In this document: piece after piece, positions 7,292-33,136 of the stretch
Numbering within the stretch: position 1 is the first letter of the stretch
How the letters are laid out: every line of letters starts with the position of its first letter
Notes under the pieces: generated by a model
The model's input: the letters and a program-made list of their open reading frames with translations, nothing else
Database searches by the model: none
What the model was told of the DNA's origin: nothing
Translations under genes and position numbers: made by a program
Origin: Chloroflexota bacterium
GTDB lineage: Bacteria > Chloroflexota > UBA11872 > VXOZ01
DNA length: 34,258 nt
Assembly: GCA_022824225.1 (NCBI GenBank)
Contig: JAJEAH010000069.1
Location: forward strand, 1-34,258
Reading direction: 5' to 3'

Positions 7292-8899
7292 GTGGACGTT
7301 GAGACTGGCTTGGTGGGGCACTGGAAGCTGGACGGCAATAGCGAGGACCGCTCCGGCAACGGCAATCACGGTCGCAGCGAGGGCGCGCTTGAGTTCACCG
7401 CGCCGCTGCCGCTGGGCGGCGGACCGGGCGCGGCGTTGTTCGACGGGCGCAGCGCAAGTATCACAGTGCCGCAGAGCGAAAGCCTGGCGCTCGGAGCGGG
7501 GGAGTTCTCCCTGGCGGCGTGGGTGCGCGCCGACCGCGTTACCACCGACGTGCCCGGCGACATAATGAGCTCGTACAGCCCCGCTACCCGGCGCGGCTTC
7601 AACTTCGGCATCCAGTCGGCGGCGGGCGTGGGGTCGTCCCAGAGCAACTGGCGCAACGTCTTCTTTGGCATCGACGACGGCAAGATCGAGCCGGAATGGA
7701 CGAATCACGGCAGGCCCGGCAACGCGGTCTATGCCATGGCGCTGGCCGTGCACGAAGGCGCGCTGTATGCGGGCACGTACGAGGGCGGCGCGGGGGAGAC
7801 CGGCCATGTTTACCGCTTTGCGGGCGGCACGACGTGGGAGGACTGCGGCGCGCCCGCCGGCTGCAACGCCGTGAGCACGCTGGCGGTGTACGGCGGCGAT
7901 CTCTATGCGGGCGTGAGTTGCTACCGCGCCCAGGGTTCGGCCCAGCCGGACTCGCCCAACAAGCGTCCCGGCGGCAGTGTCTACCGCTACGCCGGCGGTA
8001 CCGAGTGGGTGGACTGCGGCCAGCTTGGCGATGCCGAGGACGTGTTCGGCCTGGCGGTCTACGCTGGCGAACTCTACGGCTCGGCCATGTACTCGGCGGG
8101 CATGTTCAAGTACGCGGGCGGCAAGACCTGGCTGCCGTGCGGCAATCCGGGCACGCGGGTGGCGGTGCTGGGCGTCTTCCAAGGCGGCCTCTACGCCACC
8201 GGCTACGACGTGGGCGGCGTCTTTCGTTATGAGGGCGACCAGCGCTGGTCGTTCTGCGGCAACGCAGGGGATTCCACCCAGCTCTATTCGTTTGCGTCGT
8301 ACCAGGGCCAACTCCATACCGGCGTGTGGCCCAGCGGTTCCGTCTATCGCACTGAAGACGGTCGCGCGTGGCTGGATTGCGGCCGCCTGGGCGAGGAACT
8401 GGAAGTCATGGGCATGATGGTCTACAACGGCAAGCTTTACGCCGGCACGCTGCCCTTAGCTGAGGTCTTTCGCTACGACGGCGAGAACGATTGGGTGTCC
8501 ACCGGCCATCTCGACGCCACGCCCGACGTGCGCTACCGCCGCGCCTGGACCATGGCCGTCTACCAGGGCCGCCTCTTCTGCACCACGCTGCCGTCGGGCA
8601 ACGTGCTCTCGCTGGAAGCCGGCAGAAACGTGACCCACGACCACGCCCTGCCCAACGGCTGGCATCACCTCACCGCCGTGCGTGCCAACAACGCGCTGCG
8701 GCTCTACGTGGACGGTGCGCTAGTTGGAGAATCCGCGACCTTCACCGCCTCCGACTACAACCTCGCTAACGGCGAGCCGCTGCAGATCGGCAACGGCCAG
8801 ATCGGCCCCCTCAGCGGCAGCCTCTCCGACGTGCGGTTCTACAACCGCGCTCTGAGCGATGGCGAAGTAGCCGCGATCGCTGAGAAACCGCGGCTGTAG
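7292..8899 (+). CDS. LamG/concanavalin-like protein with inserted beta-propeller, 535 aa
   Basis: Probable carbohydrate-binding or structural protein of unknown substrate. The GTG at 7292 follows GGGGAGG with good spacing. Residues 1-140 are the first half of a LamG-type jelly roll (GLVGHWKLDGNSEDRSGNGNHG, then EFSLAAWVRAD). Residues about 452-535 are the second half (NGWHHLTAVRANNALRLYVDGA, LSGSLSDVRFYNRALSDGEV). Between them lie seven repeats of about 40-50 residues with the pattern LAVY-G-LYAG...VYRYAGG--W-DCG, as in a seven-bladed propeller. There is no signal peptide, so either it stays inside or export is atypical. A decayed relative lacking the propeller lies at 17159-17488. The domain call is confident; the biological role is unknown. 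Confidence 0.85.
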   Translation: MDVETGLVGHWKLDGNSEDRSGNGNHGRSEGALEFTAPLPLGGGPGAALFDGRSASITVPQSESLALGAGEFSLAAWVRADRVTTDVPGDIMSSYSPATRRGFNFGIQSAAGVGSSQSNWRNVFFGIDDGKIEPEWTNHGRPGNAVYAMALAVHEGALYAGTYEGGAGETGHVYRFAGGTTWEDCGAPAGCNAVSTLAVYGGDLYAGVSCYRAQGSAQPDSPNKRPGGSVYRYAGGTEWVDCGQLGDAEDVFGLAVYAGELYGSAMYSAGMFKYAGGKTWLPCGNPGTRVAVLGVFQGGLYATGYDVGGVFRYEGDQRWSFCGNAGDSTQLYSFASYQGQLHTGVWPSGSVYRTEDGRAWLDCGRLGEELEVMGMMVYNGKLYAGTLPLAEVFRYDGENDWVSTGHLDATPDVRYRRAWTMAVYQGRLFCTTLPSGNVLSLEAGRNVTHDHALPNGWHHLTAVRANNALRLYVDGALVGESATFTASDYNLANGEPLQIGNGQIGPLSGSLSDVRFYNRALSDGEVAAIAEKPRL

Positions 8900-9154
8900 C
8901 TGAGTTCGCCACTTCGCGCGAGTGCGCGTTCAGACGAAAACGGACTATGCTTGGTGGGCAGATTTCTTCCGTCGGTCAACGGGCGCTCCGCGACCGATTC
9001 CACGACCTCTCCAGCCAGATTTATCGCCTCTTGGCTGCCGCCTATAGCGTGGATCTCAAGCAGACCGCAGCCAACGCGCCTGGGTATCCTCACACGCCAA
9101 CCGCCTTCGCCATCGGTGTTCACGGCGCGCGCGGGTCCGGGGTCCAGGCGTCGC

Positions 9155-10042
9155 TCAGCGGTCGTCGACTTCAATCAACACCAGGCTGAGCAAGGCACGC
9201 GCCCTGTCGGAAGGGTAGGCGTCGCTGCCCTCGTAGATGACGCCCTCCAGCCCGAACTTTGCCATGTCGGCCAGGGTGAATGTCCAGCCACCCGCCGCGG
9301 CGGCGGTCGCAAAGTGTTGGGGGAAGAACCCGTAGACGGAGATATCGGCGTCCACGCCGATACTCTCGTAGTAGGCGGCCTCCAGACTAATGCGCGTCTC
9401 GACGAGGGCGATATTGCTCACGATCGCCTCGTTGATCTCTGCCTGCGTGAGATCGCCGGCCCCTTCCTGGAGCGCAAGAAAGAGCGAGTCGATGATCTGC
9501 TGGCGGCTACTGGTGCCCTGCTGTTCAGCGAAGAACTGGCTTTGACGGGTTGAACCGTGCCAGCCAACGATCCCGCCGTTCTCAATGATCTTGTTTCGCC
9601 CTGCGGGGAAGACGTAGTTGGCGCAAGAGGAGAAGCACAGACCGCGCACGCGCACGTCCCAGCCGTTTTCGTAGACGATTTCACCGATCTTCATTCCCCA
9701 GTACACCTCACCACCGAGCGACGAGATCACGAGTTCGGAAATACCGCCCTGCTCCGCGAGCCGCAAGAGCGTGTCATAGCCCTCTGGGTGCATATCCCCC
9801 GAGTAGTTTACCGATGTGCCTTCAACTGATACCACAGGCGGTGCGCCACCGGGAAAGCTGCGCAAGGACGCTTCCAGTTCGCTTTCGCTGAGGAGTGGAA
9901 TCTCGAGGGCGTCAGCGTCCGGTTTGACAATTACACGTGCCTCGGGCGTCGCCGGCGGTTCGTCGGGACAATCGCAATCGCTACAGGCTGCAAACACGAG
10001 CAGCGCGACAACCGCCGTGACGACGAACAGGACTCTTTGCAT
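9155..10042 (-). CDS. predicted lipoprotein with ClpP/crotonase-like serine hydrolase fold, 295 aa
   Basis: Candidate cell-surface or periplasmic hydrolase. The ATG at 10042 gives a proper lipoprotein signal (MQRVLFVVTAVVALLVFAAC, lipidated Cys 20); only a weak GAGAG SD precedes it. Residues about 104-165 match the pattern of periplasmic Clp-like proteins (COG3904 type): ISSLGGEVYWGMKIGEIVYENG, then LCFSSCANYVFPAGRN with candidate nucleophile Ser 138 between two cysteines, then GGIVGWHGS with candidate catalytic His 162. This resembles the SppA/ClpP superfamily, which cleaves peptides, but the substrate is unknown. The C-terminal 120 residues are helical. It stands alone. Confidence 0.75.
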   Translation of the reverse strand: MQRVLFVVTAVVALLVFAACSDCDCPDEPPATPEARVIVKPDADALEIPLLSESELEASLRSFPGGAPPVVSVEGTSVNYSGDMHPEGYDTLLRLAEQGGISELVISSLGGEVYWGMKIGEIVYENGWDVRVRGLCFSSCANYVFPAGRNKIIENGGIVGWHGSTRQSQFFAEQQGTSSRQQIIDSLFLALQEGAGDLTQAEINEAIVSNIALVETRISLEAAYYESIGVDADISVYGFFPQHFATAAAAGGWTFTLADMAKFGLEGVIYEGSDAYPSDRARALLSLVLIEVDDR

Positions 10043-10424
10043 GGAAGTCTCTCTGTGTAAAGGGGGCGTGGCGCTTGGAGGCGCGAAAACTGGGAATAGT
10101 GTAGCAGCCGGCGAATCGCCCGGCAATACAGTCGCGACTGGCCTTGTTTCCATAGCGGCGCGGCGTCAAAGCGCGCGTGGTCACGGTCGAGGTGGCAGGC
10201 CGCGCCGTGGGCAAATCTTGTCCTACAAGGGTACCGAGGCAGCGGCTGTTTGGTAGCGAACTGGCCAGGCACTTTCAGATTGGCAAGCTCGCCACAAACC
10301 GCATAGCCGCCGACGTCGCGATGGCAAGGCAGCCTTCGCCGCGTCTTGCAGACCTCTCGGCAACCGTCGGCTCGACGTATTGAGTGTTAGCCCGACGGTG
10401 GCTCCTTCTCTGCCCCAAGCAAGC
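10043..10424. other. intergenic region, no supported gene
   Basis: It contains the region upstream of the Clp-like lipoprotein gene. The last about 35 bp before 10425 are similar to the sequence flanking the vapC pseudogene at 19150, so the duplicated segment extends slightly past the stop codon. Nothing else is recognisable. Confidence 0.4.
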
Positions 10425-10685
10425 TCACGCGACCGCTAACCGCACTCCTTCGGCGACGGCAGCCTTGGCGAGGGCCTCATCCAACGTCGCGAGTTCTGCG
10501 CTTTCCCTCTTAGCCAGTTCCAGATAGAGGGCGTCGTAGAAGGAGAGCCCGTGGGCTCTTGCCAAGGCACATGCGGATTGAAAACCGGGTTCCTCGTCCG
10601 TGCGGATAGGCAAGGACTTCAAGGCATCCAGTCGCTCGTTCACCCCTGCCGCGGAAACACGCCCGCGTCCCAGACGGGGCAGCAT
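10425..10685 (-). pseudogene. 5'-truncated vapC-type PIN toxin remnant
   Basis: It encodes only the C-terminal half of a PIN-domain (VapC-like) RNase: NERLDALKSLPIRTDEEP, then LSFYDALYLELAKR and LATLDEALAKAA, which carry the third and fourth acidic positions. The first catalytic Asp and the E..N motif are missing. The homologous part begins abruptly about 20-30 bp from the stop of the VOC gene upstream, so the 5' half was lost or displaced there. It is strongly similar at DNA level to the vapC pseudogene at 19150-19552. No antitoxin gene accompanies it. It is probably non-functional as a nuclease. Confidence 0.75.
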
Positions 10686-10697
10686 GGTCGGGCGTCG

Positions 10698-11081
10698 TTA
10701 CGTCTGCATTATCTGGATCAGGTTGCCGCAGGTGTCGTCAAAGACCGCAATAGAGACGTTGCCCAAGTCTGTCGGCTCCATCATGAAAGTCACGCCCAGC
10801 GACTTCAGTCTCTCATGCTCTGCCTGGATGTCCGTAACGCCAAAGGACTGCGCTGGGATGCCTTGGTCGAATAGCCCTTTCTGATAAGCTTGCGCTACCG
10901 GGTTTTCATTTGGTTCAAGCAGAAGCTCAGTCCCATCCGGGTCATCGGGCGAGACGACGGTAAGCCACTTGTGTTCCCCCGCGGGCACGTCATGCTTTTT
11001 CACAAAGCCGAGGGTTTCTGTATAGAACTTCAGGGCTTCGTCCTGGTCACTTACAAAAACGCCGGTGAGTACAATGCGCAT
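10698..11081 (-). CDS. VOC-superfamily protein (glyoxalase/bleomycin-resistance type), 127 aa
   Basis: Single-domain vicinal-oxygen-chelate protein: MRIVLTGVFVSDQDEALKFYTETLGF is the standard first beta-alpha-beta module, and GVTFMMEPTDLGNVSIAVFDDTCGNLIQIMQT the end of the second. ELLLEP supplies the usual first-module Glu. The SD upstream (AAAGGGACACCGGAT before the ATG at 11081) is acceptable. It lies 27 nt downstream of an ArsR-type regulator on the same strand and is very likely co-transcribed with it. Such pairs usually respond to a toxic small molecule, but the substrate cannot be read from the sequence. Confidence 0.88.
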   Translation of the reverse strand: MRIVLTGVFVSDQDEALKFYTETLGFVKKHDVPAGEHKWLTVVSPDDPDGTELLLEPNENPVAQAYQKGLFDQGIPAQSFGVTDIQAEHERLKSLGVTFMMEPTDLGNVSIAVFDDTCGNLIQIMQT

Positions 11082-11108
11082 ATCCGGTGTCCCTTTCTTT
11101 GCATAGTG

Positions 11109-11381
11109 TTACTTTAGCCATCGATTCATGACACCCCTGATCGGCTCATCGTTGAAGACAAGCATCCGATACTTGCCACGCTTCTCTGAGCGTACAAGCC
11201 CCGCCCGCTCCAACACATTAATGTGCTTGGCCATGGCCTGTCGGGAGATGGCGACTTCATGCCGCACGATCAAGCGCGCCGTGAGCTCGTACAGCGTCTG
11301 CTCCTTGCGCTCGCAGAGCTCGTCGAGCATCAACCGCCGTGTTGGGTCCGCAAGCGCCTTGTAGACCAAGTCTTTGTGCAT
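11109..11381 (-). CDS. ArsR-family winged-helix transcriptional regulator, 90 aa
   Basis: Small HTH repressor. MHKDLVYKALADPTRRLMLDEL is the typical ArsR N-terminus, and SRQAMAKHINVLERAGLV with KRGKYRMLVF form the recognition helix and wing. The metal-binding ELCVCD motif is absent, so metal sensing of the classic kind is unlikely. The ATG at 11381 is used. A GTG two codons upstream is the alternative, but it falls only 3 nt after the -10 box. No SD can fit between promoter and start, suggesting a leaderless or near-leaderless mRNA. It is first in an operon with the VOC gene and probably autoregulated through the palindrome in its promoter. Confidence 0.9.
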   Translation of the reverse strand: MHKDLVYKALADPTRRLMLDELCERKEQTLYELTARLIVRHEVAISRQAMAKHINVLERAGLVRSEKRGKYRMLVFNDEPIRGVMNRWLK

Positions 11382-11389
11382 GCACACAC

Positions 11390-11419
11390 ATTATACGCAA
11401 CCATAAGGTTGCATGTCAA
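11390..11419 (-). promoter_or_regulatory. consensus promoter with operator palindrome in its spacer
   Basis: The minus strand carries TTGACA (11419-11414), an 18-nt spacer and TATAAT (11395-11390), both perfect consensus. Inside the spacer, 11397-11412, lies a perfect 6-4-6 inverted repeat (GCAACC-ttat-GGTTGC), ideally placed for repressor binding. The ATG of arsR is 8 nt beyond the -10 box. Confidence 0.85.
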
Positions 11420-11722
11420 GGGAAGATTCTCCAGGCTGGCAGGAACCACATCCCCAGCCAAGAGCTTGCGATACAGGACACGTTGGCCCACCATGACGTA
11501 CCGATTTACGACTCCTCCGTTGAGGGCGATTTTAGCGGTGTCCGCTCCCCTAACGGGCTGTCATCAGGAGTAGGCATCGCCCTGGACGCCTGGGCGGCAA
11601 CCTCCAACTACCAATGCTGGTCCCGGTACTCCCAAATTCGTTAGAGAAGGCAGCCTTGGTCGATTCCTGACTTTCAAAAGCCCCTGAACCGTGATATAGC
11701 CCATCTTTTCGCATGTTGCTAG
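11420..11722. other. intergenic region upstream of the methylase gene
   Basis: There is no supported gene. It should contain the promoter of the methylase-nuclease pair, but I see no convincing -35/-10 pair and no SD immediately before 11723. Confidence 0.4.
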
Positions 11723-14700
11723 ATGGCGTACAATGCGCATATGTCGACAATGCCCAACCCATCCCCTCTCCTCGAATGTGTTTACACCGACCTTGATTTG
11801 GTCGGAGGAACACTGTTTGATGCTGCTGACTCACCGTCGGCTGATGACGCGGACCGGTGGAGTGAACTGGGTGATTGGCTCCTTCTTGCAGACCGAGTGA
11901 AAGCAGACCGGATCTTTTTTCTGAACGATGACCCCGTCCTGGTTTTTTCATCTCTCCCATCGGGCTCTGATGAAGACGATGTTTTCAATTGCTACCGGCG
12001 CACCTGGAGTCTCGCGAGACCGCGTTGTCTGTTCCTAGCGGTTGGGAGTGAATTGAGAGTCTATTCTCTGGCTAGCCCACCGGTTACTGTTGGAACCAAC
12101 GCCGTGACTCCCAAACCGCTGGAAGTCGTCACCCAAGCGGCCGAAGTCCTGGAGAAGCTCTCGGGCTTTCACCGGGAACGCTTGGAATCTGGAGCGGCTT
12201 TCGAAGACCAACATTTGTCCGAGCAGTCAGGTCGCGCCGACCAACAACTGCTACGGGATGTGCAGGTAGCCACCCAGGCATTGACCGATGCTGACCTTGA
12301 GCCGCCAATTGCCCATTCGCTCATCGAACGAGCGATTCTGGTACGGTATCTCGAAGATCGTGAAATCCTCACGGACGAATACTTTGACGAAGTTGCAAGT
12401 AAGCATTCTTACACATTGGGCGACACTTTGGATGAGGGACGGGCACCGGACTTTGGGAAGCCTAGTCGTTTTATCGAGTTTCTTGCTGACAAAAGTCTTA
12501 CTTACGGATTGTTCGATCAACTCGCCGAGGACTTCAACGGCGACCTGTTCGTGACCAGCACCGTAGAGCAGGAATGCGTTACTAGCGCCCAACTCCGACT
12601 GTTGATGGACATGCTACAAGGAGCAGTGAATGCGGTCCAGCAACCTCTGTTTCTTTGGGCTTATGACTTTAGCGTCATTCCCACTGACCTCATTTCCAGT
12701 ATGTACGAGCTGTTCTATCGCGAGGAGGTAAGCGAAAAAAAGTCTAGCACGTACTATACGCCAGCTGCTCTGGTAGAGTTCGTGTTGGCTGCCGTGCTCA
12801 ATGGGGAGGCACTAAACCGCAAGCCCACGGTCTGCGATCCTGCTTGCGGGTCAGGGATCTTCCTCGTTGACGCATATCGCCGGATTGTGAGACACGAGAT
12901 GTGGCGCGAAGGGAAGCCTCTTTCCAGCGACCGTCTTAGGGAACTGCTGCTCAGCCGTGTTGCGGGTTGCGACATCGATGAGGCGGCAATTCGCCTCGCC
13001 GCTTTCAGCCTATATGTGGCATTCTTGAGTTACCAATCGCCGCAGGATATACGGGAAGCTGGACCACTGCCACGGCTAATACATTCCGGTAGTGCTAATT
13101 GTGGATTTGCCCCCTTGGTCGTAGGTGATGCCTTCGCTCCTAGGGAAGGGGAATACGCTCCAACTCAACTGGAGGACCTAACCTACACTGGACAATTGCC
13201 CTGGCCGGTCTCGGGCTTCGATGTGGTAGTTGGCAACCCCCCCTGGACTGAGATATCGGAAAGCGAACAGACCCGACCTGAGGAGTGGGCCAAGATGCTT
13301 GGCCGCGTGATTGGAGGTCGAAACCCCTCACAGTTATTCCTGTGGCGAGCGTTGGATTTACTGAAGGACACCGGTACGGCTGCTCTCCTGATCGGCGCAA
13401 AAGCCATGCTCAACACAACCAATACCGCCCGCCTTTTCCGCGAACAATGGCTCCAAGAAGTGAGACTTGACCACGTGGTCAACTTCAGTAATGTCAGGAA
13501 GGACTTTTTCGCGAAAGGCGTTGCACCCTTCATGCTGCTTCGGTTCTGTCATGGTGATCGGCTATCCAATGAGATGGTAGTCTATGAAACCGCACGATCG
13601 GTAACTCCTGGAAGACGTGGCTCCGCGGCATTAGCACGCTTGGACCGCCAAGTGGTTTCTAAGGCGTCCTTGCTTGCGCGGCACTACCTGTGGAAAACGT
13701 ACAGCGCGGGCTCTCTCCGAGATGATGCTCTAGTGGCGAGACTAGAGGTCGAAGACCGTTTGAGCAACTATGTCTCAGGCACCCCACAGGGTTTTGGTTT
13801 TCAACGACCACATGGACAACAACAAGGTCATGCTACCCCACAAAGCATGGACGGTCTGCCCATTCTCTCGAAATTCGATTCGTGGGGGCCTCTCAGGCAA
13901 GAATGGTTCGAACCCGCTCCGTCACATGTGAAGTATATTCCCGACGAGCGGTTATTTAGGGGACGTCGATTGCTGGTACGGTGGGGCGTCTCTCCCAAGT
14001 TTGGGCCACATGCGAGATTGGAGACCGACCCGGTCGCCTTCCGCCACACAACCTATTCAATTTCCTTGGACCACTTAACTTCGTGGGAGGGGAAGATAAT
14101 CCTGGCAACACTCTTATCGTCTTTGGGGCGCTACTGGCTGTACATGGTTTCCGGATCTTGGGGTACGTGGCGAGACCAAGTCCGCATGAGTGACGTGCTT
14201 AATCTGCCTGTCAGGCTGAATCCTCCCACCGGAGAGATGATTAGGCGGATAGAACAAGTGGTTGACGACCTATCCCATATGTCCCCGCAAAGAAGGAAAG
14301 GCCTTGCAGTCACAGTTCCCCTCGAGATGAAATGCCTCGACGACAGCATTGCGGAGCTTTTTGAATTGACTGATGCCGAGCGGAGTCTTGTCGCAGACTT
14401 CTGGGCATCCCAAGAGTCTGACGCAACTCTGCCACTGCCAGTGTTGGACATCGCGGCAGGTACGGAGGCCGACCTAAGTTCCAGCAGGGCGGATGGGATT
14501 CGGCCGTATTTGAAGGTGTTGGTAAGAGCGTGGAATCGAAGATTAAGGGGAAGTGGGGAGTTTAGTTGGAAGGTATGGCGGGACGCTCCTACTGGCGTGG
14601 TAGCCGTAGTCTTGGAAACCCGTGAAATTGGGCAAGACTATCATTTCAGTCCTACGGGGGAAGAAACGGAAAGTTGGTCAGCAGCCTTGCGTCGCTTGGA

Positions 14701-14878
14701 AGTTCAATGGGACGTTCCGCAGACGCGATCAATCCTCCGATACGGTGTAGTCAGGATTGTGACTGATACAGCGATTGTAATCGCAAAACGCGACGAGCAA
14801 CGACTGTGGACTGCCACAGCGGCTTGGCAAGACGCTGATGCCACTACTGCGCAAATAATGTCGGTTAACAGGCAATGA
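11723..14878 (+). CDS. Eco57I-like N6-adenine DNA methyltransferase of R-M type, 1051 aa
   Basis: Large S-adenosylmethionine-dependent DNA methylase. Residues about 319-347 (IPTDLISSMYELFYREEV..SSTYYTP) are the conserved entry helix and YTP. DPACGSGIFLVDAYRR (372-387) is SAM-binding motif I, AGCDIDEAAIRLA follows, and VVVGNPPWTE (about 501-510) is catalytic motif IV of N6-adenine methylases. Residues 60-115 (DRIFFLNDDPVLVF..CLFLAVGSELRVYSL) and LIERAILVRYLEDREIL (201-217) resemble the N-terminal parts of large Eco57I-type R-M proteins. The C-terminal about 400 residues would hold target recognition. No nuclease motif is evident within it; the next gene, overlapping by ATGA, supplies one. The start is uncertain (11723 or ATG at 11741; no SD). 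The gene is visibly more A/T-rich than its neighbours, suggesting transfer. Confidence 0.88.
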   Translation: MAYNAHMSTMPNPSPLLECVYTDLDLVGGTLFDAADSPSADDADRWSELGDWLLLADRVKADRIFFLNDDPVLVFSSLPSGSDEDDVFNCYRRTWSLARPRCLFLAVGSELRVYSLASPPVTVGTNAVTPKPLEVVTQAAEVLEKLSGFHRERLESGAAFEDQHLSEQSGRADQQLLRDVQVATQALTDADLEPPIAHSLIERAILVRYLEDREILTDEYFDEVASKHSYTLGDTLDEGRAPDFGKPSRFIEFLADKSLTYGLFDQLAEDFNGDLFVTSTVEQECVTSAQLRLLMDMLQGAVNAVQQPLFLWAYDFSVIPTDLISSMYELFYREEVSEKKSSTYYTPAALVEFVLAAVLNGEALNRKPTVCDPACGSGIFLVDAYRRIVRHEMWREGKPLSSDRLRELLLSRVAGCDIDEAAIRLAAFSLYVAFLSYQSPQDIREAGPLPRLIHSGSANCGFAPLVVGDAFAPREGEYAPTQLEDLTYTGQLPWPVSGFDVVVGNPPWTEISESEQTRPEEWAKMLGRVIGGRNPSQLFLWRALDLLKDTGTAALLIGAKAMLNTTNTARLFREQWLQEVRLDHVVNFSNVRKDFFAKGVAPFMLLRFCHGDRLSNEMVVYETARSVTPGRRGSAALARLDRQVVSKASLLARHYLWKTYSAGSLRDDALVARLEVEDRLSNYVSGTPQGFGFQRPHGQQQGHATPQSMDGLPILSKFDSWGPLRQEWFEPAPSHVKYIPDERLFRGRRLLVRWGVSPKFGPHARLETDPVAFRHTTYSISLDHLTSWEGKIILATLLSSLGRYWLYMVSGSWGTWRDQVRMSDVLNLPVRLNPPTGEMIRRIEQVVDDLSHMSPQRRKGLAVTVPLEMKCLDDSIAELFELTDAERSLVADFWASQESDATLPLPVLDIAAGTEADLSSSRADGIRPYLKVLVRAWNRRLRGSGEFSWKVWRDAPTGVVAVVLETREIGQDYHFSPTGEETESWSAALRRLEVQWDVPQTRSILRYGVVRIVTDTAIVIAKRDEQRLWTATAAWQDADATTAQIMSVNRQ

Positions 14879-15546
14879 ATCAGCGTCCACAGTTGTCATC
14901 CATTGACTTTTGGAATGACCACGAAGAGCTCTGTAGACAGCTCCTTCGGGATGCGTTAGCCGACTTAGAAGACAGACCCATTGCAGCTGACGAGAACGAC
15001 CTCAATCGTCTTCTGTATCGGGCCATAATTAGGGTATCCCAGAAGGCCGTGCAAGACGGAGATCACATTCCTGTAGTTGTCCCGGAAGGTAGAAACCCGC
15101 CGGCGGCGTCCGATGTGGAGCGAGCCAAACGTGAGTTCAAGGTCCCAGATTTCTATTGGGCTTATATCGATCCTCTCGCACCTGACCCCAATGACGCTTC
15201 CAAGCAGTTCGTAGTTGAGTGCAAGAGACTTGCGAACCCTATCGCCCGATACACAAGGGAATATGTGAGGTCAGGTATCGAGCGTTTCATCAACTTCGGC
15301 CACGGTTATGGGAAGGGAATGAGGAGTGGTGCCATGGTCGGGTACTTGCAAGAGGTTTTTCTTGATGATGCATTAGCGAGGGTGAATGGCGTGGCCAAAG
15401 GTGACGCCATCCAGGCGCTGGCTGTCATTCTACGGCACGGTGAAAAGGGCGCGGAATTTGGGCACCAGGTTACCCGGCCAATTCCTGTTTCTCCCTTTTG
15501 TTTGACGCACATATGGACTCGGATTGGCCCCGACCCAGTTCCTTAG
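14875..15546 (+). CDS. PD-(D/E)XK-type endonuclease partner of the methylase, 223 aa
   Basis: Probable restriction endonuclease subunit. The ATG overlaps the methylase stop (ATGA), so the two are translationally coupled. Residues 91-92 (VPDFYWAY) and 115-117 (FVVECKRL) give the PD...E-x-K active-site signature on the expected beta strands, with 22 residues between. GHGYGKGMRSGAMVGYLQ (142-159) and the ending RPIPVSPFCLTHIWTRI look like conserved blocks, and FWNDHEELCRQLL begins the protein. I know of similar small proteins next to Eco57I-like methylases, but cannot name a characterised homologue. Like the methylase it is A/T-richer than the flanks. The restriction role is inferred from motif and coupling. 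Confidence 0.75.
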   Translation: MNQRPQLSSIDFWNDHEELCRQLLRDALADLEDRPIAADENDLNRLLYRAIIRVSQKAVQDGDHIPVVVPEGRNPPAASDVERAKREFKVPDFYWAYIDPLAPDPNDASKQFVVECKRLANPIARYTREYVRSGIERFINFGHGYGKGMRSGAMVGYLQEVFLDDALARVNGVAKGDAIQALAVILRHGEKGAEFGHQVTRPIPVSPFCLTHIWTRIGPDPVP

Positions 15547-16059
15547 TCCAATTCTCCCAGTCTAGGGTAATTGTTACTCGACTATGAGTAACGTCGCCAA
15601 TCTGCACTGGGTCCATTGCGAAGTGAAGCAGGGGCGACGACGATCGGGACCAATCCACGCCGCCGGACGGGTAGTTCACCTCCGACAGTACCGGCGACAA
15701 CCACACCTGCGGGGTGAGGTGGGTCGGCACTGTCGCCTGTTGGAGCGCTTAGTTCCGGGGATCGCTAGAGTGAGGTCGGGCCGGCCGGCGCTGCGTGGCA
15801 TTACTTCGACTTACATGCTCGGCCTCTCGGTCTTGGTGGTCCCGAAGCTCACAGCCCGCCGAGCCAAGGCTCAAAATCGGCTCATTCTATCGTAAAGATA
15901 GGCCCACCAGATGTGACTTTTCCATAGCGTAGTGCACGGTAGGTGGTACCTAAACCCGTCACTGAATGACATTTATCTGCCGGTGAGTACGAGCCCTTCT
16001 AGGCTGGGCAGGGTCTTGGGTCAAGACAATCCAGGCACAATCCGCGGTCAAGAATTGTA
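15547..16059. other. intergenic region, no supported gene
   Basis: About 510 bp of G/C-average sequence follow the nuclease stop. A minus-strand open frame at 15470-15730 overlaps the nuclease gene and is unconvincing. The part from about 15900 on may be further debris of the regulator remnant at 16060. Confidence 0.4.
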
Positions 16060-16250
16060 CTACGGGTTTTTCTTCATCGGCAGGCGGTAGCCGACGCGTG
16101 GCCCTGCTAGGAATAAATGCGGGCCACCGGCGTCGTCACCCAGCCTGCGACGGAGCCTCTTCACATTGGCACGCGCCGGACTCGAGCCACTGGAGTTGTC
16201 CTGGCCCGAGATTTCCTTTAGCAGTTACTCGTGTGCAGCCACCGTTCTTT
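16060..16250 (-). pseudogene. remnant of an OmpR-type response regulator DNA-binding domain
   Basis: The minus strand encodes LLKEISGQ, then VKRLRRRLGDDAGGPHLF and GPRVGYRLPM before a TAG at 16062-16060. This is the C-terminal winged helix of OmpR/PhoB regulators (LLREVWG, VSRLRRKLGDD, RGVGYRL). Upstream codons (ERWLHTSN) fit only after a one-base shift near 16225, and no receiver domain remains. It is therefore a decayed 3' fragment. Confidence 0.75.
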
Positions 16251-16287
16251 GACCTTAGGATGGCCGCCGGCAAGTCCTAGCTTCTGT

Positions 16288-29827: not shown

Positions 29828-30868
29828 TCAGCCGCACACCTGGCGAAAGACGCGCAGGTGGTTTAGGCCCAGCATCTTGCGCAGATCGTCCTCTTGCCAG
29901 CCCCGGGCCAGCAAGCCCTCGGTGATCTGCGGCACCACGGTAGCGTCTTTCAGCACGTCGCCGCCGCCGTCAAAGTCCGAGCCCAGGCCGATGCAGTCCG
30001 TGCCGCCGACCTGGACGATGTGGTCGAAGTGGTCGAGCAGCCGGTCGAGGGTTTGCTTGGCCGGGTCGGCGTCCACGAATGCGGGCACGTACGTCACGCC
30101 GATCACGCCGCCGTTGGCGGCCACGGCGCGGATTTGGTCGTCGGTGAGGTTGCGCGGGTGCTCGCACAGGGCGCGGCAGGCGTTGTGGGAGCCGATTACG
30201 GGCGCGCTTGTCACGTCCATCACGTCCCAGAAGCCCTGATCGCTGATGTGGGAGATGTCCACGATCATGCCGTGGTCGTTCATGTGCTTCACCAGGTCAC
30301 GTCCAAAGTGGGTCAGGCCACCGCCGGTGACGTTCTCGAACGCGCCGTCCGCGGCATGGGCGCGATAGCTCCACGTCAGCGTCATGGAGCGCACGCCAAG
30401 GCGGTGAAGCACCGGCAGCACCCACAGGCTGCGCTCCAATACCTCGGAATTCTCGATGGTGAGCACGGCGGCGATCCGGCCGCTCGCCACGATAGCTTCC
30501 ATCTCATCCGCCGTGGTCGCGATGGCAATCTGGTCGGCATGCGCGTCCACCTCGGCCAGGAACCAGCCGAAGGCGTCCATGGCGTAGAGCAGATGGTTGC
30601 CCCAGTTGCGGGTGACGTCCACGGCGCAGTAGACGACGTCGATGCCGCCGGCGCGGAGCTTGGGGATATTGACCTGCAGCTCCGGCCCGTCAGCGCCAAC
30701 CGTGCCCCGCAGAAACGCCACGGCGCTCTCCGGCTCCGCGCGGGCAGGCGCATCCGGCCCGGCGATGCTCTCTCCATTGCGCCGGATGTAGGCGACAATG
30801 GCGTCGTTGTGGGAGTCGATGACGAGGGAGGACTTATGCAGTTCTGAGGCAATAGATTCTGTACCCAT
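29828..30868 (-). CDS. membrane dipeptidase, peptidase family M19, 346 aa
   Basis: Renal-dipeptidase-type zinc hydrolase of dipeptides. The ATG at 30868 follows AAGGAG with 6 nt spacing. All metal ligands of the family are visible: His 20 and Asp 22 (VIDSHNDA), Glu 139 (AVLTIENSE), His 207 (VDISHIS), His 228 with the nearby Arg (GSHNACRAL), and Asp 298 (GLGSDFDG). MTLTWSYRAHAADGA and the C-terminal GLNHLRVFRQV are also characteristic. Length is normal and there is no signal peptide, so cytoplasmic. It is the first gene transcribed leftward of the A/T-rich spacer. Confidence 0.95.
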   Translation of the reverse strand: MGTESIASELHKSSLVIDSHNDAIVAYIRRNGESIAGPDAPARAEPESAVAFLRGTVGADGPELQVNIPKLRAGGIDVVYCAVDVTRNWGNHLLYAMDAFGWFLAEVDAHADQIAIATTADEMEAIVASGRIAAVLTIENSEVLERSLWVLPVLHRLGVRSMTLTWSYRAHAADGAFENVTGGGLTHFGRDLVKHMNDHGMIVDISHISDQGFWDVMDVTSAPVIGSHNACRALCEHPRNLTDDQIRAVAANGGVIGVTYVPAFVDADPAKQTLDRLLDHFDHIVQVGGTDCIGLGSDFDGGGDVLKDATVVPQITEGLLARGWQEDDLRKMLGLNHLRVFRQVCG

Positions 30869-31157
30869 GCTTGCTCCTTATGAACTTGAAGTGAGAAAAA
30901 CTAGAACGTTCAAAACAAGTGAGCAAATTCCATGTACTTTGCTCCATCTGGTCGAGAGCCTAGAATGTGAACGGATTCTAAGTTGAAAGGCAGGCGTGAA
31001 CGGCTCCCGAGGCGTAGGCAGTAGAGAGCGAACTTTGGAAACAACTCGGCTTGGCGCTACAATTCGACGTCAAATTCGGCAAAAACTTACGCTCAATTCA
31101 TGCGAAAAAAAGGCAAAAAACAGTCTCAAATCTGTCTCAATTCCTTTACGAATAGTC

Positions 31158-31163
31158 TATAAT
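31158..31163 (+). promoter_or_regulatory. candidate -10 box of NYN gene
   Basis: A perfect TATAAT about 108 nt before the ATG at 31271; no convincing -35 box. Confidence 0.35.
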
Positions 31164-31230
31164 AGATGCATATAAATCCATCGGCGGCATCAGTAACCCA
31201 CGTCGGGCAGCTGCTGATAGTCTAAACCCC

Positions 31231-31259
31231 AAGGGGTGCATTATTCCAATGCACCCCTT
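31231..31259 (+). promoter_or_regulatory. strong hairpin in leader of NYN gene
   Basis: The 12-bp perfect stem aaggggtgcatt/aatgcacccctt with a 5-nt loop ends 11 nt before the ATG at 31271. There is no T-run, so it is not a classic terminator. It could act as an attenuator or control ribosome access. Confidence 0.6.
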
Positions 31260-31270
31260 GAATCATACAT

Positions 31271-31927
31271 ATGCCAATGGCTACTGAACAACAATTCCGA
31301 CCTCAAAGACGGGACCGCGTCAGAGTTTTCATTGATTTCTGGAATCTACAGCTTGCCTTCAATAGTAGAGAGGCAGAGTCTACTGGGAATTCCAATGCAC
31401 GTTTCGAGATTGACTGGAGAGCCTTTCCTCAGGCCATCGCCTCCGAGGCCGCGAGAATTGTGGGAGCGCAAGACTTCTCCTATGACGGTACAATTGTCTA
31501 TGCCTCCTACAAAGTTGGCGATACAGATGCCCGACTCAAGAAGTGGCTGACGACTTGGCTAGACCGCCAGCCAGGCATACAGGTAGTGGTAAAGGAAAGA
31601 CACTCAAAACGAACTCCAACGTGTCCAAGTTGTAGAAAGCCAATCGAACAATGCCCCCATTGCGATGAGCCGATAGCTGCGACAGAATAAAAAGGCATTG
31701 ACACCGCTATGGTAACGGACATGGTTCGCCTGGCATGGGAAGAAGCCTACGACATTGGCGTTGTCGTTTCATCCGACAGCGACTTTGTACCGGCTGTTGA
31801 GTTCCTTGATTCTCGGGGTTTGAAGATTGTCCAGGCGGGCTTTCCTCCTTTTGGTGCTCATCTTGCCACGTCTTGTTGGGCGTCTTTTGACATTTTCCCT
31901 ATGAGGGAAAAATTCCGCAGGCAATGA
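31271..31927 (+). pseudogene. NYN-domain (PIN-like) RNase with zinc ribbon, split by one in-frame TAA
   Basis: Residues 17-110 (RVRVFIDFWNLQLAF.., catalytic Asp 22, NYN signature) and codons after the stop (KGIDTAMVTDMVRLAWEEAYDIGVVVSSDSDFVPAVEFL, Asp 144, 169, 171) form one continuous NYN/LabA-like metal-dependent RNase domain. A C-x2-C..C-x2-C zinc ribbon (118-131, TCPSCRKPIEQCPHCD) precedes the break. The TAA at 31688-31690 is the only stop in 219 codons, and both halves are in the same frame, so this is a single nonsense change. It may be a pseudogene, a sequencing error, a recoded stop or a reinitiating gene (an ATG at 31709 exists). The stop at 31925 overlaps the next gene (ATGA). Confidence 0.85.
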
Positions 31928-32112
31928 GCGTCGAGTTTCTGGCAACATTGGCAACAGTAGTTATTGCGGCCGTAGCCATTGGCGGCCTCGTTCTGCGTTT
32001 GCAGGGGCAGGTGTCCGACCTGGGGCAACGTGTAGCGCGCATCGAGGGGCTGCTCGAGGGTTACTTCATGCGCGACCGGTCCGAAAACGACACGCCGCCT
32101 CCGCAGCGATAG
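31924..32112 (+). CDS. small single-pass membrane protein, 62 aa
   Basis: The ATG overlaps the stop of the NYN gene by four bases, so it is likely translationally coupled. EFLATLATVVIAAVAIGGLVL (residues 4-24) is one transmembrane helix, followed by a short coiled coil (LQGQVSDLGQRVARIEGLLEG) and a charged tail. Function unknown. The coupling suggests it depends on translation of the NYN 3' half. Confidence 0.7.
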   Translation: MSVEFLATLATVVIAAVAIGGLVLRLQGQVSDLGQRVARIEGLLEGYFMRDRSENDTPPPQR

Positions 32113-32173
32113 CTGTCGTGGTGGGCGCCGCTTCAGGTTCAGTTACCGGTTGATCCCTGAACACCGTTAGCCG

Positions 32174-33136
32174 CTAGTTGCCATCTTTCGTCACCACGTC
32201 GATAAGCGCCTGGATGTAGCCGTTTGCAAACGCCCGGCCCCGGTGGCCCCAGGCGGAATCGCCGTCGGTCTGGGGCACGTGGTCGTCGATGAAGAAGCCG
32301 TCAAACCCCACCTCGTGGTAGATCTGCATCGTCTTGTGCATGTCCACGTAGCCGGTATTGATGAACTCTTCCTGGAACTTCGGCACGGGGCTGGAGACGT
32401 TGCGGAAGTGCACGTAGAGGATCTTCTGGCGCTCGCCGAAGTAGCGGATCATCTCGTAGATGTCCTCGCCCTGCATCTCGGCAAACGTGCCCTGGCAAAA
32501 CTCGATGGCGTTGTGGTCGGACGGGTAGATTTCGATGAGGCGCTTGTATGAGGCGAAGTTCCTGAAGAGCAGGGGAATGCCGCCGAGCCGCTCCATGGGC
32601 GGGTCGCACGGGTGGATGCCCAGGCGGATGCCCTCTTCCTCGGCAATGGGCGTGATGAGCCTGATCCAGTACTCCAGGTTCTCCCAAACTTCCTCTTCAG
32701 TGTAGTCGCGGCCGTGGGAGAGCGGCCTCTCCGCGGCTTCCGCGTAGTCGAACGCCGTGGCCACGGCCCCGCAGCGAATGGTGGCGGGCGTCGTCCGCCA
32801 CACCTGGGACGGCATCCAGTGGTAGCCGAAGATGGGTATGCCCGCCCGCGCCATGTTGCGGATGGTGGCAACCATGTTCTCGATCTGCTCGTCCCGGCGC
32901 GGACCGCCCAGCATGACGTGGTCGTAGAATTCGACCGGCACGTTTTCCAGCGCTGAGAGCGTGAGGCCGTACCCTTCGATGGTCTCGCGGAGCTTGACGA
33001 GGTCGTCGAGCTCCCAGCGCCCATTTTCGCCGGGCAGATTTGCCGTATTCAAGAGCACGTCCGTCGCGCCGTACTGCGCGGCAAACTGCAAGTACTCCGG
33101 CGACGGCTCGCGGAATTGACCAAACCCTACTCGCAT
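32174..33136 (-). CDS. uxuA: mannonate dehydratase-like protein (UxuA family), 320 aa
   Basis: TIM-barrel metal-dependent dehydratase; UxuA turns D-mannonate into 2-keto-3-deoxygluconate in glucuronate catabolism. The ATG at 33136 follows GAGGAGG. Family blocks are RLGIHPCDPPMERLGGIP (His 175), IEFCQGTFAEM (Cys 214), ILYVHFRNVSSP (His 243) and FIDDHVPQTDGD (284-292). At 320 aa it is shorter than E. coli UxuA (about 390), so it belongs to a short subfamily whose substrate could be another sugar acid. It starts 27 nt after a TIM-barrel isomerase gene, one operon. Confidence 0.85.
   Translation of the reverse strand: MRVGFGQFREPSPEYLQFAAQYGATDVLLNTANLPGENGRWELDDLVKLRETIEGYGLTLSALENVPVEFYDHVMLGGPRRDEQIENMVATIRNMARAGIPIFGYHWMPSQVWRTTPATIRCGAVATAFDYAEAAERPLSHGRDYTEEEVWENLEYWIRLITPIAEEEGIRLGIHPCDPPMERLGGIPLLFRNFASYKRLIEIYPSDHNAIEFCQGTFAEMQGEDIYEMIRYFGERQKILYVHFRNVSSPVPKFQEEFINTGYVDMHKTMQIYHEVGFDGFFIDDHVPQTDGDSAWGHRGRAFANGYIQALIDVVTKDGN

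Follow-up and report, generated by a model that had tools for sequence, protein, structure and literature searches.

The 34,258-nucleotide stretch of Chloroflexota bacterium DNA analyzed here (contig JAJEAH010000069.1, hereafter the window) encodes a two-gene module, a 1,051-residue N6-adenine methylase followed by a 223-residue predicted nuclease, which is probably a split, Type IIG-like restriction-modification (RM) system. We directly observed the gene pair, its conservation, the linkage of the two genes, the topology of the predicted nuclease fold, the exchange of the recognition domain, and the chromosomal slot in which the module sits. A preliminary description of this DNA had proposed a compact restriction or phage-defence system, possibly acquired horizontally, made of a methylase and a separate PD-(D/E)XK nuclease. 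Comparative evidence now supports a small module of this kind that moves horizontally, with its activity predicted from sequence. We re-read both open reading frames (ORFs) and found their lengths and their ATGA overlap to be as first described; the overlap probably couples translation of the two genes.

The small protein as a probable PD-(D/E)XK nuclease

The 223-residue protein alone had no significant match in Pfam, PADLOC, NCBIfam, PHROGs, or PDB sequences, its PHROG match being weak (E = 0.019), and adding 15 homologues (16 members in all) still gave nothing significant in Pfam, PADLOC, or PDB. The P91-D92 and E115-C116-K117 residues, originally noted from the letters of the sequence, are at those positions, and their conservation across 84 homologues indicates that they are not a chance occurrence. 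In this alignment, E40 is kept in 83 of 84 sequences, D92 in 82, E115 in 83, and both K117 and H212 in all 84, with Y130 and Y145 likewise conserved. Among 16 aligned small proteins about 20% identical to that of the window, E40, D92, E115, K117, Y130, F138, M154, G156, and H212 are invariant. A single-sequence search for close homologues in plasmids, phages, and viral contigs found none; they surfaced only via the methylase neighborhood and profiles.

An AlphaFold model built from the 84 sequences has a mean predicted local distance difference test (pLDDT) score of 90.4. It runs from a helix (residues 40 to 60) through strands at 68 to 70, 93 to 98, and 109 to 120 to a second helix (123 to 139) and a strand (151 to 159), followed by a helix and three strands. 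D92 opens the 93-98 strand, and both E115 and K117 lie within the 109-120 strand. The model, predicted with high confidence, contains an alpha-beta-beta-beta-alpha-beta core with the PD-(D/E)XK residues at the canonical second and third strands, the topology on which the preliminary description had staked its assignment. Profile alignment by hhalign matched the nuclease to HSDR_N_2 (P = 4e-4), placing PDFYW...FVVECKRL on VDYAIL...LVLIECK, and to Mrr_cat (P = 0.02), pairing the D and the (E/Q)xK. As a yardstick, HSDR_N_2 and Mrr_cat, two accepted members of the superfamily, match each other at P = 1e-4 by the same method, and column-shuffled nuclease alignments reached P values of at least 0.47 against HSDR_N_2 in 60 trials. 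Based on sequence profiles and the model, the small protein is a likely but unproven member of the PD-(D/E)XK nuclease superfamily.

The methylase chain

The larger protein matches N6_Mtase and Eco57I in Pfam and REase_MTase_IIG in PADLOC (PDLC03623), and it also matches PDLC03603. DPACGSG and NPPW were both confirmed at residues 372 to 378 and 505 to 508, and this combination of a DPACGSG-type motif I with an NPP(F/Y/W) motif IV is characteristic of the gamma class; the chain is predicted to mark adenine within a specific motif. Its AlphaFold model (mean pLDDT, 88.6) is closest by Foldseek to the solved folds of CamA, BrxX/PglX, M.BseCI, BpuSI, MmeI, and DrdV. A family scan matched no ATPase or helicase family in either chain.

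Linkage and distribution of the pair

We scanned GTDB species genomes with the methylase alignment and kept the best 80 loci, picked for likeness to the window methylase. Their hosts include actinobacterial, chloroflexal, planctomycetal, acidobacterial, proteobacterial, bacteroidal, cyanobacterial, archaeal, and other genomes. The nuclease profile matches directly downstream of the methylase in 77 of these loci. At one further locus (L054), the start of the nuclease is present before the contig ends, and at the other two (L068 and L107), the contig ends within the methylase, so all 78 testable loci carry the nuclease directly behind. We also searched the genomes of the window's phylum from the nuclease side, which does not depend on the presence of a methylase and so counters the selection bias of methylase-chosen loci. 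This yielded 13 genomes, 11 with a methylase directly upstream and 2 with nuclease fragments only. Those fragments (L169:7030-7608 in genome G328, and L171) have no methylase nearby and are probably remnants of the system. Nuclease homologues thus adjoin methylases in other genomes, as the preliminary description had expected, and the pair is genuine and widespread in bacteria and archaea.

Most of the plasmid methylase relatives examined (about 25% identity) have an ORF of 215 to 250 residues of the nuclease family directly behind. In Rhizobium gallicum (L023) and on pRSB223 (L033), the annotated methylase is in two pieces and the nuclease follows the second. We set aside two plasmid loci with a different, two-methylase arrangement, from Mesorhizobium (L034:2450-7478) and Xanthomonas (L035:2408-7424): these encode a ribbon-helix-helix protein, an N-6 methylase of about 590 residues, and an Eco57I-type methylase of about 1,020 residues, and a nuclease of the window family is absent. 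At another locus (L123:7572-11600), a truncated family methylase precedes a run of short ORFs with repeat-like motifs that resembles a cassette array.

In the ORF pairs tallied, the nuclease start overlaps the methylase stop by 4 bases in 36 pairs and by 1 base in 15. A natural methylase-nuclease fusion was found at none of the loci tallied, in agreement with the early remark that the nuclease is a separate polypeptide. We considered and rejected a three-gene system: among 619 neighbor ORFs around 103 pairs, no family is common to more than five loci. The recurrent same-strand upstream families are mostly unrelated helix-turn-helix (HTH) regulators, in the position expected of controller genes. 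We conclude that the system consists of two genes, to which a controller is sometimes added.

Four loci (L062 from Paracoccus solventivorans, L065 from Methylovulum psychrotolerans, L076, and L095) have a complete nuclease ORF beside a methylase gene disrupted by a frameshift or stop. A nuclease able to act autonomously should be lethal to a host that has lost the methylase. Provided that these are not sequencing errors, survival of the host suggests that the nuclease depends on the methylase chain and fits a nuclease that does no harm by itself. The interruptions themselves could reflect sequencing error, decay, or phase variation.

Exchange of the recognition domain

The preliminary description stated that no specificity subunit or helicase is present. 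We found no helicase or specificity (S) gene adjoining the pair in a family scan of its neighbors, but a specificity domain does exist, inside the methylase chain at about residues 600 to 840. Among six close relatives (L047, L048, L050, L051, L055, and L064), pairwise identity in this domain is mostly either 36 to 41% or 54 to 63%, and the remaining methylase segments are about 60 to 78% identical. Nuclease identity is 60 to 68% in both recognition-domain classes, with the more distant L050 left out. Across 142 close pairs, nuclease identity had a partial correlation of 0.72 with the methylase scaffold and 0.35 with the recognition domain. Judged from these identities, the recognition domain is an exchangeable module, and the nuclease is not exchanged with it. 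A nuclease that read the DNA sequence by itself would be expected to track the recognition domain more closely, so this weak tracking argues against independent sequence reading by the nuclease. Exchange without nuclease change also fits a single recognition module shared by methylation and presumptive cleavage.

A nuclease-like N-terminal domain in the methylase

Residues 1 to 125 of the methylase matched HSDR_N_2 at P = 5.6e-5 over 98 columns by hhalign, compared with P values of at least 0.019 for other methylase segments and at least 0.19 for 60 column shuffles. The strand expected to carry the E-x-K reads PVLVFSSL in the window methylase, and across the family there is no conserved E or K at the aligned catalytic strand. 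Conservation of at least 90% in residues 1 to 145 is limited to P71 and W95. The N terminus therefore appears, at the level of sequence profiles, to be a nuclease-derived but catalytically empty domain, and it is a plausible docking site for the nuclease. Homology between this N terminus and the nuclease subunit itself was considered and rejected (P = 0.42 by profile alignment).

Proposed mechanism and alternatives

In the mechanism that we propose, the large chain would recognize a DNA sequence through its internal target-recognition domain and methylate adenine within it, using S-adenosylmethionine (SAM). The 223-residue nuclease, translated in coupling with the methylase, would bind the methylase chain, possibly docking on the nuclease-like N terminus, and would cut incoming DNA at or near unmethylated sites in a metal-dependent, ATP-free reaction. 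By itself it would recognize little or no specific sequence, and it would be inactive without the large chain. We infer methylation, cleavage, complex formation, dependence of the nuclease on its partner, and restriction of phages or plasmids from the comparative results above. The pair may further represent an unnamed architectural class of RM system, frequent among bacteria and archaea, in which a dead nuclease remains at the N terminus of a Type IIG-like methylase, cutting is supplied in trans by a dedicated, conserved PD-(D/E)XK subunit, and one exchangeable recognition domain reprograms both activities; we hold this broader proposal more tentatively, at slightly less than an even chance.

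Several observations weigh against a split Type IIG-like system. Foldseek returned nothing significant for the nuclease in PDB and BFVD, although one Mrr-domain protein and one restriction endonuclease from a phage are among the weak viral hits. The HsdR_N likeness of the methylase N terminus is a remote profile match. The weak residual correlation of the nuclease with the recognition domain (0.35) makes some specificity of its own possible, and the broken methylases may be sequencing errors in draft genomes. The first alternative to consider is an orthodox Type II system, in which an independent, sequence-specific nuclease recognizes the same motif as the methylase without interacting with it. 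Such systems would account for the methylase-nuclease gene order, the separate chains, a nuclease of typical size (about 220 residues), and the HTH controllers upstream at some loci. However, the nuclease remains alignable across many phyla without diverging in step with the recognition domain, complete nuclease genes survive next to broken methylases, and the linkage and gene overlap are strict, all of which make an orthodox Type II system unlikely.

The remaining alternatives assign the small protein another role. A minimal exclusion system like BREX or MADS, in which the methylase marks self and the nuclease-like protein is regulatory or degradative rather than directly restricting, would explain why PglX and mad2 profiles match the methylase and why BrxX is among its closest folds. 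Yet no other BREX or MADS gene recurs near the pair, and both scores fall far under that of PDLC03623 and under curated NCBIfam cut-offs (for PglX, 48.5 bits against 400), leaving this explanation with little probability. Least probable of all, in our assessment, is an accessory role for the small protein beside a methylase that is in itself a full Type IIG enzyme, as its PADLOC label has it, and that cuts with an unusual but active nuclease at its N terminus. The PDLC03623 model does span family members nearly end to end (in L028, residues 6 to 1021 align to positions 8 to 1017 of the 1,022-position model; E = 3e-216), and the N terminus is HsdR_N-like, but conservation there reaches 90% at P71 and W95 alone, and the catalytic-strand E and K missing from the methylase are almost invariant in the separate nuclease.

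Chromosomal slot and mobility

The module occupies a variable slot, from which it is absent in all four congeners examined; the flanking segments match at 73 to 91%. In genome G004, the equivalent slot holds a cluster of five same-strand genes (L157:11453-18034) encoding a GNAT + ABC ATPase protein, a HerA/DUF87 ATPase, an HTH protein, a PLD-like nuclease, and an AAA (ORC-CDC6-like) protein. The PADLOC mad8, HerA, and DpdK models match this cluster weakly, and it is possibly an uncharacterized HerA-type defence system. In G001, a wider gap corresponding to window positions 8892 to 15919 is filled by an HNH endonuclease, a 343-residue protein with a C-terminal HNH_2 domain that stands alone between the same flanks (L155:10750-11781). 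In G002, this region has two ORFs of 524 and 394 residues without a family match (L156:10631-12205 and 12666-13850), and the flanks themselves are in a different order in G003.

Methylase relatives are also carried by conjugative and mobilizable plasmids, some near TIR and SIR2 genes. Patchy distribution and an exchangeable chromosomal slot, the two marks of a mobile module, were both found. Together, the slot contents and plasmid copies support, but do not prove, that the module was acquired horizontally and serves in defence. The genes are A/T-richer than their surroundings, as first described: G+C content is 53 to 55% over 11.0 to 15.5 kb, compared with 60 to 68% in most of the remaining window. 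The neighbors of the pair are a glyoxalase, an HTH protein, and a membrane protein. A second G+C dip (49 to 56%) at 30501 to 32500 is perhaps another acquired segment.

Table 1. Features of the methylase-nuclease module and its slot, in window coordinates
Feature	Position	Strand	Basis or remark
Variable slot (module here, other cargo in congeners)	11460..16268	.	blastn of window against loci L154-L157 and their ORFs
Methylase chain, predicted gamma-class N6-adenine	11723..14878	+	1,051 residues; methylation (M) and specificity domain in one chain
N-terminal domain, residues 1-125, HsdR_N-like fold without catalytic ExK (predicted)	11723..12097	+	hhalign, conservation
SAM-binding motif I DPACGSG, residues 372-378	12836..12856	+	D372, G376, G378 invariant in 78 homologues
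Catalytic motif IV NPPW, residues 505-508	13235..13246	+	N505, P507 invariant in 78 homologues
Target-recognition domain, about residues 600-840	13553..14242 (611-840)	+	Identity drops and varies independently in six close relatives
ATGA overlap of methylase and nuclease genes	14875..14878	+	Sequence
PD-(D/E)XK nuclease subunit, 223 residues (predicted)	14875..15546	+	Conserved residues, AlphaFold topology, hhalign
D92 to E115-C116-K117, predicted metal-binding/catalytic residues	15148..15225	+	Sequence, conservation, model

Novelty and implications

The preliminary description could not name the family. Although the system is unnamed, its methylase family is already covered by PADLOC PDLC03623, modeled as a single-chain Type IIG enzyme. 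A model of the nuclease is present in none of the four libraries scanned (Pfam, PADLOC, NCBIfam, and PHROGs), and we recognized no description of the pair in the literature; REBASE, which was outside the search, may hold members under Type II names. Defence-finding pipelines that use PDLC03623 report the methylase by itself as a full Type IIG enzyme and leave the nuclease as a "hypothetical protein." A nuclease model would re-annotate many genomes and separate intact systems from methylase-only remnants. It would also make it possible to test how restriction enzymes divide cutting and sequence reading between chains or combine them in one. If the nuclease does follow the recognition domain of the methylase, the pair would be a reprogrammable two-part restriction enzyme.

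Comparison with known systems

Like Type I systems (HsdR/M/S), the pair would place a nuclease as a subunit on a methylase core, and its nuclease relatives are of the HsdR_N type. Unlike them, it has no ATP-driven translocase and no separate S; with no helicase or ATPase family in either protein and none conserved nearby, it falls outside Type I. The closest folds of the methylase chain are BREX PglX/BrxX and CamA, neither of which has a small nuclease partner. BREX has several further genes, and CamA is an orphan methylase. With a PglX score under the cut-off and no companion genes conserved nearby, we do not place the pair in BREX. Type IIH, represented by AhdI, similarly has a separate restriction (R) protein beside a Type I-like gamma methylase. 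In AhdI, M and S are two distinct chains, and the nuclease is Type IIP-like (PMC4081073). The window pair differs from Type IIH in that its recognition domain is inside the methylase chain and no S gene recurs nearby.

The pair resembles the Type IIG enzymes (Eco57I, MmeI, BpuSI, and DrdV) in having a gamma-class m6A methylase with a fused recognition domain and no helicase, in presumably using one recognition domain for both methylation and cleavage, and in that PDLC03623 is the window methylase family. Type IIG is defined by a nuclease and a gamma methylase in a single chain (PMC4081073). By this definition the pair lies outside the type: its predicted active nuclease, with the nuclease residues, is a separate protein of about 220 residues, the N terminus of the large chain lacks the ExK, and no ORF fuses the two. 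The Type IIB enzymes BcgI and BsaXI are likewise encoded by two genes, and RM.BsaXI is the best PDB sequence match. Those enzymes join R to M and keep S apart, whereas the window pair joins M to S and keeps R apart, making the two arrangements mirror images of each other.

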